From Cellulomonas sp. KRMCY2 (GTDB lineage: Bacteria; Actinomycetota; Actinomycetes; Actinomycetales; Cellulomonadaceae): a stretch of 64,000 bases of DNA. This document shows positions 1 to 2,749 of the stretch, piece after piece (the stretch's first letter is position 1; every line of letters starts with the position of its first letter). The translations under genes and the position numbers were made by a program. The notes below the pieces were generated by a model that did not search any database, was not told the origin of the DNA, and saw only the letters and a list, made by a program, of their open reading frames with translations. The DNA lies in the NCBI RefSeq assembly GCF_000526515.1, contig NZ_JAGF01000001.1, positions 4,154,001 through 4,218,000 on the forward strand, read 5' to 3'.

Positions 1-686
1 GTGTCGTAGCAGCGCGCACCCGCCGTCACGAGGTTCTGGCAGCTCTGGTTGGACTGCCAGACCCCGACCAGGACGTACGCGCCGAAGACGATCAGCGAGA
101 CGCCGGTCGCCAGGCCGTCGAGGCCGTCGGTGAGGTTGACCGCGTTCGACCAGGCAGTGATCAGGAAGTTCGCCCAGATGACGAAGAGGATGACGCCGAG
201 CGTCGTGCCGGCCCAGGCGAGGTCGATGTTCGTGTCCCGGATGAACGAGATCCGGGTCGAGGCCGGGGTGCGGAAGTTCTGGTTCGGGAACTGCAGGGCG
301 AGCACCGCGAAGGCCAGTCCGATCAGCCCCTGACCGACGATCTTCCATCGGGCCGACAGGCCGAGACTGCGCTGCCGCGAGATCTTGATGAAGTCGTCGA
401 GGAACCCGACCACGCCGAGCCCGGTCATCAGGAAGATGACGAGCATCGCCGACGCGCTCGGCCGGTTGCCGGTCACCAGCCCCGCGCCGCTCCAGCCGAT
501 CAGGGTCGCGATGATGATCACGACGCCGCCCATCGTCGGCGTCCCACGCTTGGTGAAGTGCGCGGTCGGGCCGTCCTGGCGGATGAACTGGCCGTACTGC
601 TTACGCACCAGGAAGCGGATGAACAGCGGGGTGGCGAGCAGCGCCACGAGCATCGACAGCCCGCCGGAGATCAGGACAGCCCTCAT
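1..686 (-). CDS. mraY: Phospho-N-acetylmuramoyl-pentapeptide-transferase MraY, C-terminus cut by window edge
   Basis: MraY is the integral membrane enzyme that transfers phospho-MurNAc-pentapeptide from UDP to undecaprenyl phosphate, making lipid I. Only the first 228 codons are in the window; the family is about 360 residues. The visible part has hydrophobic segments from residue 1, the basic stretch with FTKRGTPTMGG near residue 50, the Asp-rich motif VGFLDDF, and the conserved NLTDGLDGLA loop near residue 195, whose Asp residues belong to the Mg-binding active site. The ATG overlaps the stop of the murE fusion gene in an ATGA junction, so the two are translationally coupled. It is the last visible gene of the division and cell-wall operon. 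Confidence 0.97.
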   Translation of the reverse strand, partial: MRAVLISGGLSMLVALLATPLFIRFLVRKQYGQFIRQDGPTAHFTKRGTPTMGGVVIIIATLIGWSGAGLVTGNRPSASAMLVIFLMTGLGVVGFLDDFIKISRQRSLGLSARWKIVGQGLIGLAFAVLALQFPNQNFRTPASTRISFIRDTNIDLAWAGTTLGVILFVIWANFLITAWSNAVNLTDGLDGLATGVSLIVFGAYVLVGVWQSNQSCQNLVTAGARCYD

Positions 687-2749
687 CCGGCTGTCACCTC
701 GCTGCCGGCGAGGTCGTCGGCAAGCCCGGACAGGCCGGCCTCCGGTGCGGCCTTGACCAGGACGACGTCACCGGGCCTGAGCTCGTCGGCCAGCCACGCG
801 GCCGCGGCCTCGACGTCCGGCAGGATCCGCGTCTCCTCACCGAAGGAGCCCTCCTGGAGGGCGCCGGTGTGGATCGCGCGGACGGTGTCCCCGACCACGA
901 CCAGACGGGCGATGTTCAGGCGGACGGCGAGGCGCCCGACGGCGTCGAACGCGGCGATCGCGTCCGGCACGGCCATCCCGCGCACGTCCATCGCACCGAG
1001 CACCGCGATGCTGCGGCGTGCACCGCTGCGTACCGCGAGGTCACGGAGCGCGATCCGCACGGTGTCGGGGCCGGCCTCGCCCGACTCGTCGATCACTGTC
1101 ACGCCGTCCGCGCGCTCGGTGACCCGGGAGACCTGCGGTCCCGACGCGGAACCTGCGTCACCGTGCTCCGGGTCGATGAGCTGGTCGGCGACGGCGAGGA
1201 AGACCTCGCGGTCGTTGTACCGGTGGAAGACGCCGGCGATCTCCTGCGTGGGCTCGTGACCCTTGCCCGTGACGATCACCGTGTCCTGGTCTCCGGCGAG
1301 GCCGACGGCGAACCTGATCGCCTCGGCGCGCGAGGGGGCCTCGTGCACGTCGTGCAGGTCGGGCCGCTCGGCGCGGACACCGTCGAGGATCGCGGCACGG
1401 ATCTCCTGCGGTGGCTCGGAGCGAGGGTTCTCGTCGGTGACGACCAGGACGTCGGCCAGCCGGGCCGCGATCTCGCCCATCATCGGTCGCTTGCCCCGGT
1501 CGCGGTCCCCGTCCGACCCGAACACGATCACCAGGCGCCCGGGGGTGATCGGCCGCACGGCCTCGAGCGCCAGCACCAGGGCATCCGGGGTGTGCGCGTA
1601 GTCGACCAGGCACAACGGCAGGCCACGGCCGCGTTCGACGACGCGCTCCATCCGGCCCGGGATCGCGTGCGCCGTCCCGACCGCCGTCGCGGCTGCGTCC
1701 AGCGCGATGCCGGCGCGGTATGCGAGCACGACGGCGAGCGCTGCGTTGGAGACGTTGACCAGCCCGGGCAGGGGGCTCGCCGCCGCGACCTGCTCACCGT
1801 CCGGCCCGGAGAGGGTGAACGTCGAGCCGACGCCGTCCAGCCCGATCGTCGCGTCGGAGACCCGCCAGTCGGCCGTCGCCGCGCCGACCGAGCCGTCGCG
1901 CGTGGCCACGGTGTCCACCGGGATCCTCGCCTCGGCGGCGAGCCGGACGCCCCAGGCGTCATCGACGCACACGACGCCCCGGCGGGCGCTCTCGGGCGCG
2001 AACAGCCGCGCCTTGTCGCGGAAGTAGCCCTCCATGTCGCCGTGGAAGTCCAGGTGGTCCCGCTGGAGGTTCGTGAAGCCGACCACGTCGAACTGGAGAC
2101 CACCGACCCGCTCGAGCGCGAGGGCGTGCGAGGAGACCTCCATCGCGCACGCCGTCGCACCCCGCTCGTTCATCAGGGCGAACAGACCGTGCAGCACGGG
2201 GGCCTCGACGGTCGTACGCGGGCTCTCGATCGCCTCGGCGCCGATCCGCAGCTCGACGGTGCCGATCACCGAGGTCAGCCGGTGCGCGGTGCGCAGCGCC
2301 GCATCGACGAAGTAGCACGTGGTCGTCTTGCCGTTCGTGCCGGTGATCCCGACGACCGTCACCTCGCGGGCGGGATACCGGTAGAACCATGCCGAGACCT
2401 CGCCGAGCAGGGTGCGCGGGCCGGTCTCCCCGGTGACCAGCACCGGGACGTCGACGCCGCCCGACGTGATCCGCCGCAGGCCGTCGCCGTCGGTCAGCAC
2501 CGCGACAGCGCCTGCGGCCAGGGCCTGCTCGACGAAGTCGGCGCCGTGGGCCCGCAGACCCGGCAGTGCGACGAAGAGGTCACCGGGCTGGACGTCGGCC
2601 GAGCCGACAGCGACACCGGTCAGCAGCACGTCGTCGGCAGAAGGACCTGCGCCACCCGGGTGGACGGTCAGGCCGAAGGTGTGTGCGAGGTCGCCGAGGT
2701 GACGGGAGGCATGATGCTGTGGGCGCATCCGGCCCTGCGGGGACGTCAC
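683..2749 (-). CDS. murE: MurE (UDP-MurNAc-L-Ala-D-Glu:diamino acid ligase) fused to a degenerate MurF C-terminal domain
   Basis: 688 residues. Residues 1 to about 525 are a complete MurE, the cytoplasmic ligase adding the third stem residue: the ATP loop GITGTNGKTTT, the EVSSHAL motif, FTNLQRDHLDFH, and TDENPR where meso-DAP enzymes carry DNPR. Residues from about 550 to 680 resemble only domain 3 of MurF (SIAVLGAM, RLNIARLVVVGD, ELRPGDVVLVKAAPEAGL). The MurF N-terminal and ATP-binding domains are absent, and the usual DDSYNANP motif reads DESGEAGP. Mid-sized between one ligase and a full MurE-MurF fusion. The GTG start lies 7 nt after a TAGATT hexamer and fits a leaderless transcript; ATG at 2728 is an alternative. 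The third-residue substrate (DAP, Lys or Orn) cannot be read off safely. Confidence 0.93.
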   Translation of the reverse strand: MTSPQGRMRPQHHASRHLGDLAHTFGLTVHPGGAGPSADDVLLTGVAVGSADVQPGDLFVALPGLRAHGADFVEQALAAGAVAVLTDGDGLRRITSGGVDVPVLVTGETGPRTLLGEVSAWFYRYPAREVTVVGITGTNGKTTTCYFVDAALRTAHRLTSVIGTVELRIGAEAIESPRTTVEAPVLHGLFALMNERGATACAMEVSSHALALERVGGLQFDVVGFTNLQRDHLDFHGDMEGYFRDKARLFAPESARRGVVCVDDAWGVRLAAEARIPVDTVATRDGSVGAATADWRVSDATIGLDGVGSTFTLSGPDGEQVAAASPLPGLVNVSNAALAVVLAYRAGIALDAAATAVGTAHAIPGRMERVVERGRGLPLCLVDYAHTPDALVLALEAVRPITPGRLVIVFGSDGDRDRGKRPMMGEIAARLADVLVVTDENPRSEPPQEIRAAILDGVRAERPDLHDVHEAPSRAEAIRFAVGLAGDQDTVIVTGKGHEPTQEIAGVFHRYNDREVFLAVADQLIDPEHGDAGSASGPQVSRVTERADGVTVIDESGEAGPDTVRIALRDLAVRSGARRSIAVLGAMDVRGMAVPDAIAAFDAVGRLAVRLNIARLVVVGDTVRAIHTGALQEGSFGEETRILPDVEAAAAWLADELRPGDVVLVKAAPEAGLSGLADDLAGSEVTAG

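Follow-up and report, generated by a model that had tools for sequence, protein, structure and literature searches.

The 64,000 nucleotides of Cellulomonas sp. KRMCY2 analysed here (the window; forward-strand positions 4,154,001 to 4,218,000 of contig NZ_JAGF01000001.1) begin with the 5' part of mraY and with a murE gene whose coding sequence runs on, in frame, into a degenerate copy of the C-terminal domain (domain 3) of MurF. We describe this domain-3 remnant, a MurF homologue encoded elsewhere in the genome (hereafter membrane MurF), and similar remnants in a second family. It can be held with fair confidence that domain 3 has kept a non-catalytic, probably docking, role after catalysis moved elsewhere. 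The genus was taken as Actinotalea and 19 Actinotalea genomes were compared, two of them of lower quality (G010, 83% complete; G012, 9% contaminated); the genome carrying the window is one contig, 99.98% complete. "Canonical MurF" designates a protein above the curated TIGR01143 cut-off of 288.6 bits.

A MurE-MurF domain-3 fusion next to mraY

Positions 683-2749 of the window (minus strand) form a single open reading frame (ORF) of 688 residues, MurE and MurF domain 3 in frame. Its features are as follows; for the altered sites, the sequence of the intact MurF of genome G003 is given in brackets.

1..686, minus strand: 5' part of mraY, its ATG overlapping the TGA of the fusion
683..1132, minus strand: MurF domain-3 remnant, residues ~540-688 and the stop codon
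731..754, minus strand: degraded site KAAPEAGL (KSSHGAGL), with the K retained
830..856, minus strand: second part of the kept patch, QEGSFGEET, of the form EGS[WF]xxE[ST]
917..937, minus strand: first part of the kept patch, GRLAVRL, including V111 and R112 of the alignment
977..997, minus strand: dead site GAMDVRG (GEMLELG)
1067..1090, minus strand: dead site DESGEAGP (DDSYNANP)
1133..1174, minus strand: putative linker, residues 526-539, with approximate borders drawn from the alignment and the profile range
1175..2749, minus strand: MurE part, residues 1-525, with P-loop GTNGKTTT at 137 and DENPRSE

The preliminary description of this locus, made from the letters alone, had proposed a fusion of MurE to a degenerate MurF C-terminal domain, and profile searches bear this out. 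The first 525 residues score 510.3 bits with NCBIfam NF001124 (cut-off 476), and this score, the P-loop and DENPRSE place them in the MurE family (NF001124 / TIGR01085). Because Pfam showed just the best Mur_ligase_C stretch, 30 canonical MurFs were used to build a domain-3 profile; residues ~540-688 match it with 156 bits over model positions 6-147. On the 467 positions of the MurF profile the match starts at 319, and across domain 3 the remnant is 60-64% identical to nine intact Actinotalea MurFs. The whole fusion scores 149 bits with TIGR01143, below the cut-off and in three pieces, the best of which lies inside MurE, and 478.6 bits with the bifunctional MurE/MurF family NF008896, below its cut-off of 1023.

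The other structural claims also stand. Neither a MurF P-loop nor the N-terminal domain, which binds UDP-N-acetylmuramic acid (UDP-MurNAc), occurs in the remnant or 3' of murE in the cluster. The sequence YNANP, the active-site core motif of MurF domain 3 and also present in our canonical sequences, is replaced, and the key residues are changed as listed above. The fusion stop codon (TGA at 685-683) overlaps the mraY start (ATG at 686-684). An assembly error or fresh deletion was ruled out, since the fusion is one uninterrupted ORF in all 10 Actinotalea genomes that have no canonical murF. All ten fused proteins begin with the same ten MurE residues, MTSPQGRMRP (window 2720-2749), and differ over the next ~30.

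Probable replacement of MurF and Ddl in Actinotalea

A working MurF had been predicted to be encoded elsewhere. The genome holds five Mur_ligase_M matches, namely the fusion MurE, MurC, MurD, FolC and a single MurF-like protein; all stay below the murF cut-off, and no hidden canonical murF was found. The search for a second complete MurF has thus returned a MurF-like ligase, and none that qualifies as canonical. This protein of 514 residues (C1:3,152,868-3,154,409, plus strand, 1 Mb from the window cluster) scores 185 bits with the murF model, and its closest solved relatives are MurFs. It matches the middle and C-terminal domains of Mur ligases, without a Mur_ligase N-terminal domain match, and carries a P-loop (GSYGKTSTK) and DDTYNANP. 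By hydropathy, the first ~150 residues contain several membrane-like segments, and the protein likely sits in the membrane; this reading is likely rather than proven because weaker segments are also marked within the enzyme part, at 309-335 and 343-367. As the sole MurF-like ligase found in the genome, it presumably acts as MurF, and to that extent the prediction holds.

A Ddl-like ORF directly follows membrane MurF, with a 4-base overlap if the first GTG is the start. Together they span L006:6869-9600 (within C1 ~3,152.9-3,156.7 kb), and gpsA lies ~2 kb upstream. A second, convergent Ddl of ~320-331 residues is found at L006:9706-10665; such a gene adjoins the module in 9/10 fused-type Actinotalea loci.

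The 19 Actinotalea genomes fall into two types. Ten have membrane MurF (64-76% identity), no MurF over the cut-off and, in every case, the fusion. The other nine have a canonical MurF and no membrane MurF; in seven of these murE and murF are separate ORFs, and in G005 and G013 the contigs end inside murF. A Ddl domain match of at least 220 bits was obtained in 8/9 canonical and 0/10 fused genomes (best 129 bits), and the divergent Ddl adjoins membrane MurF in 9/10 loci, that of G014 being broken by contig ends. This split, together with the position of the divergent Ddl next to membrane MurF, suggests a joint exchange of Ddl and MurF.

Outside the genus, MurF over the cut-off is present in all 40 genomes of other genera (in a sample of 59) and in 386 of the 396 genomes of an order-wide draw. 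Among the ten without it, G000, G007 and an Arsenicicoccus-like genus were examined further.

A parallel case in Microbacteriaceae

A scan of named genomes for membrane MurF was read from its best 80 loci, which belong to Acidimicrobiia, actinobacterial metagenome-assembled genomes (MAGs), MAGs labelled Acidobacteria, Microbacteriaceae (Pontimonas, Gulosibacter, Yonghaparkia), Nocardioides, Arsenicicoccus and others. The divergent Ddl is present in 71 of these loci, and only one of the 31 genomes searched, Nocardioides YR527, has a MurF over the cut-off. The murE-mraY interval was compared in 30 genomes (A. lenta, taken as G008, being omitted). Eleven of them, ten Microbacteriaceae and one 'Frankiales' MAG, have a domain-3 remnant between murE and mraY as a separate ORF. 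G076, whose piece is without murE, was counted neither with nor without a remnant, and a domain-3 match of 19.5 bits in G081 (Nocardioides YR527), lying within the MurD frame, was dismissed as chance.

The Microbacteriaceae were then surveyed at E <= 1e-60. Membrane MurF is carried by 40 of 398 genomes, and 39 of these 40 have no MurF over the cut-off (one positive among the 33 new ones, none among the seven others). The remnant lies unfused between murE and mraY in 39 of the 40; the contig of the remaining genome, G955, stops at murE, too early to tell. In a smaller draw from this family, 56/60 genomes have MurF over the cut-off and three of the remaining four have membrane MurF. G652, from the family of G068, has no MurF over the cut-off and no membrane MurF at the same E-value limit, and represents either an incomplete assembly or another replacement. 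The remnant matches begin at MurF profile positions 202-346 of 467 and reach near the C-terminus; judging from these borders, the front of murF erodes while domain 3 persists.

Three genomes stand apart. The Microbacteriaceae genome G718 has a full canonical MurF outside the cluster together with membrane MurF (C1:1,908,347 and C1:239,069) and a remnant after murE (L266). Nocardioides YR527 (L246, L326) likewise has both proteins, its MurF over the cut-off lying outside the cluster, where mraY follows murE with no remnant. In the 'Frankiales' MAG RYN_111 (G066, L233), the remnant ORF overlaps murE and has a very long tree branch; it is possibly a third case.

Residues lost and residues kept

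Residues were compared in 30 canonical MurFs, 10 Actinotalea remnants and 39 Microbacteriaceae remnants. The Y and both N of YNANP remain in 0-5%, and the M and second E of GEMLEL in 0-10%, of both remnant sets. The K and S of KSS are kept in 20-36% of remnants and the P of YNANP in 20-33%; the G of GEMLEL is not lost. Eight alignment columns are 100% identical in both sets: G107, V111, R112, G122, E135, G136, S137 and E141. Column 138 is W in 39/39 Microbacteriaceae remnants and W or F in Actinotalea. EGS[WF]xxE[ST] occurs in 50/50 remnants and NANP in 0/50, and three further remnants have EGSWDGES. The catalytic core is lost and a patch is conserved.

This patch is also a feature of canonical MurFs: EGS[WF] is found in 27/30 of the order sample and 25/30 from Microbacteriaceae. 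The MurF of E. coli is without the EGSW loop. AlphaFold gives the remnant a confident fold, which is that of MurF domain 3. By DSSP of the model, strands lead directly into YNANP, GEMLEL and KSS, and the VRL helix end and the EGSW loop each lead directly into a strand. Since the lost motifs follow strands and the kept elements precede them, the EGSW loop would be expected, on topological grounds, to face the edge of the sheet opposite to that of the lost motifs.

Could the domain work with membrane MurF, perhaps by regulating it as a subunit or by recruiting it to MurE? Its retention is seen where canonical MurF has been replaced, and fusion to MurE would put the preceding enzyme of the pathway alongside. 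We nevertheless regard this as unlikely: 17 of the 30 membrane-MurF genomes compared from the best 80 loci show no remnant next to murE, a domain 3 with DDTYNANP is part of membrane MurF itself, and the EGSW patch already exists in canonical MurFs.

A few genomes offer a small natural control. Four genomes of one genus, which seems to be Arsenicicoccus, were read (G446, G101, G459, G460); membrane MurF status covers G446 and G101, as well as A. cauae (G089), rather than G459 and G460. The intact cluster MurF of G460 has a domain 3 without EGSW, and in G446, G101 and G459, as in A. cauae, murE is followed directly by mraY with no remnant. The MurF of Nocardioides YR527, which may be foreign, is also without EGSW. 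In this small sample, nothing appears to be kept where MurF is seen without the loop.

Selection on the remnant and its overlap with mraY

Ratios of nonsynonymous to synonymous substitution rates (dN/dS, Nei-Gojobori) were pooled from close, separate pairs chosen by hand. They amount to 0.32 (0.25-0.41) for the remnants of three Actinotalea pairs and to 0.21 (0.16-0.26) for those of six Microbacteriaceae pairs; therefore, the protein itself is under selection. In nine Actinotalea pairs dN/dS is 0.23-0.54 for the remnant and 0.13-0.24 for MurE, and intact MurF domain 3 gives 0.04-0.40 in six pairs. Across all pairs the corresponding ratio of proportions (pN/pS) has medians of 0.70 and 0.75, distant pairs being higher, with synonymous sites near saturation.

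These values bear on two simpler explanations. A pseudogene remnant in slow decay, awaiting deletion, would fit the varying starts of the matches, as if the front were eroding, the loss of the catalytic core and a dN/dS above that of MurE. It is extremely improbable, given 50/50 open frames sharing one motif, eight patch columns that are invariant in both 10 and 39 sequences, pooled ratios well below 1 and a confident fold. The preliminary description had spoken of an old, maintained remnant, in agreement with its presence in 10/10 genomes, with purifying selection and with the parallel retention in Microbacteriaceae.

Alternatively, the remnant might only preserve mraY expression through the stop/start overlap, the protein being inert. 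It borders mraY, the two codons overlap in the window, and 46/50 remnants end in four bases able to overlap a start codon. Yet conservation peaks mid-domain and drops toward the mraY start, which makes mere coupling to mraY unlikely. Synonymous variation is seen at most invariant residues and is scarce at a few (E, D, Q and Y codons), and dN/dS is 0.2-0.3. Moreover, several membrane-MurF genomes have murE directly before mraY. Taken as the whole explanation, coupling is decidedly unlikely.

Probable independent retention in two families

In a domain-3 tree of 53 rows, hand-chosen for shorter branches, each remnant set sits with the canonical MurFs of its own taxon: those of Actinotalea group with the Actinotalea proteins, and those of Microbacteriaceae are placed among the proteins of that family. 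A single group of all remnants is rejected on this tree (p 0.00075), and one origin of the Microbacteriaceae remnants is not (p 0.335). The MurE tree unites 10 fused and 7 intact Actinotalea (support 97 in the Shimodaira-Hasegawa-like approximate likelihood ratio test, SH-aLRT), and Microbacteriaceae are separate (100), with remnant carriers and intact genomes mixed. As this tree keeps the families apart, murE was not passed between them. The fused Actinotalea are not one group in the MurE tree (three changes, some forks weak) and are one group in the domain-3 trees; because of this disagreement, no single fusion event is claimed. The architectures also differ, the remnant being fused to MurE in Actinotalea and a separate ORF in Microbacteriaceae. 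Thus domain 3 was likely, if not provably, retained independently in two families.

This difference in architecture also bears on a further proposal, in which the domain merely stabilises or regulates MurE as an intramolecular accessory. Fusion in 10/10 Actinotalea is what it would predict. We find it very improbable, as any contact with MurE in Microbacteriaceae would have to be made in trans, and the weak full-length model gives no picture of packing.

A proposed second role for MurF domain 3

We propose the following scenario. In an Actinotalea lineage, membrane MurF and the divergent Ddl would have taken over the D-Ala-D-Ala branch. The murF of the division cluster would then have become redundant as an enzyme and lost its N-terminal and ATP-binding domains. 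Domain 3 would have been kept, fused to MurE, for a second role of its non-catalytic edge (VRLN and the EGSW loop), a docking surface that would tether a divisome or precursor-pathway partner close to MurE and MraY. The preliminary description had suggested that the domain might keep MurE close to MurF or MraY, which may be the case. The association with the replacement is observed; we infer the order of events. We read the conserved patch as a probable docking surface. Candidate partners are MraY, MurE itself, MurG and the division proteins FtsZ, SepF and Wag31. Mycobacterial Mur ligases are described as binding FtsZ, FtsW, FtsQ, Wag31 and SepF in a fragment-complementation assay in the text of PMC3605390, which also cites MurF-MraY-MurG contacts in Caulobacter; Bordetella MurE-MurF is described as binding MurG (PMC6420597). 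More generally, it seems rather probable that in Actinomycetales MurF serves a second, non-catalytic function through the EGSW edge of domain 3, and that the dead domain was kept for it in two families after replacement by membrane MurF and Ddl.

Several observations weigh against this proposal. Some motif residues persist: the first D of DDxYNANP in 100% of Actinotalea and 87% of Microbacteriaceae remnants, the second D in 0% and 67%, the first E of GEMLEL in 0% and 51%, and the A of YNANP in 60% and 13%, respectively. EGS[WF] is missing from 5/30 Microbacteriaceae and 3/30 other canonical MurFs, four of the five Microbacteriaceae exceptions being near variants (QGSW, EGAW, EGNW, EGTF). The remnant dN/dS is 1.1-2.7 times that of MurE in the nine pairs, and, with so many remnants able to overlap a start codon, mraY coupling may contribute to retention. 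On the full set of 109 rows, many of them fast-evolving and G066 being excluded as a long branch, the test does not reject a single origin (p 0.084). The AlphaFold2 model of the whole fusion is weak, with a predicted local distance difference test score (pLDDT) of 72, and its domain contacts are not readable. Finally, as read from their gene clusters, the 17 remnant-less genomes imply that the remnant is dispensable in some lineages. Most of them are Acidimicrobiia-like and may never have had the domain there; the others include Arsenicicoccus, Nocardioides GY 10127, a Modestobacter MAG and a Propionibacteriaceae MAG.

Relation to known Mur ligases

The remnant shares with canonical MurF (TIGR01143; PDB 1gg4, 4cvk/4cvm, 3zl8) the fold of domain 3 and a location between murE and mraY; unlike it, it is without domain 1 and the ATP-binding domain 2, and its active-site core is replaced. 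A Mur ligase homologue kept in a complex is known from the plastid RNA polymerase, whose MurE-like subunit (8w9z chain N) is called PAP11; with an unrelated partner in plant plastids, it is an analogy only. The membrane MurF and divergent Ddl of Acidimicrobiia and actinobacteria occur where canonical MurF is missing. Membrane MurF has the middle and C-terminal domains of MurF, with DDTYNANP, whereas membrane-like segments replace the UDP-MurNAc-binding domain and its score stays below the murF cut-off.

In the bifunctional MurE-MurF of Bordetella (NF008896), MurE is likewise followed by MurF sequence in one polypeptide; according to the text of PMC6420597 both enzymes are complete there, in 945 residues with a ~20-residue linker, whereas here a dead domain 3 stands alone. 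A survey of van genes in actinobacteria describes MurF-like genes beside van genes, near Ddl-type ligases (PMC8698665); Actinotalea and Microbacteriaceae have no occurrence in its main text. The genome paper on Pontimonas salivibrio describes mostly typical peptidoglycan genes, murF having no occurrence in its main text (PMC6106888). Nor does murF occur in the main text of a genus paper on Actinotalea, which gives the peptidoglycan as ornithine-type (PMC8878594). We found no description of the domain-3 remnant or of membrane MurF in the open-access literature, a coverage that leaves out most subscription journals, and no family name for membrane MurF with the divergent Ddl. Membrane MurF, the parallel Microbacteriaceae case and the conserved non-catalytic patch also go beyond the preliminary description.

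Significance

Mur ligases have been proposed to work in a multi-enzyme complex, and in an essential enzyme catalysis and scaffolding are hard to separate. Here, in some actinobacteria of soil and water, evolution seems to have split the two, the catalytic parts being gone and one surface kept, which offers a specific patch for a partner search. The findings also suggest that, in actinobacteria, the Ddl and MurF of the D-Ala-D-Ala branch are exchangeable for a membrane-associated version.

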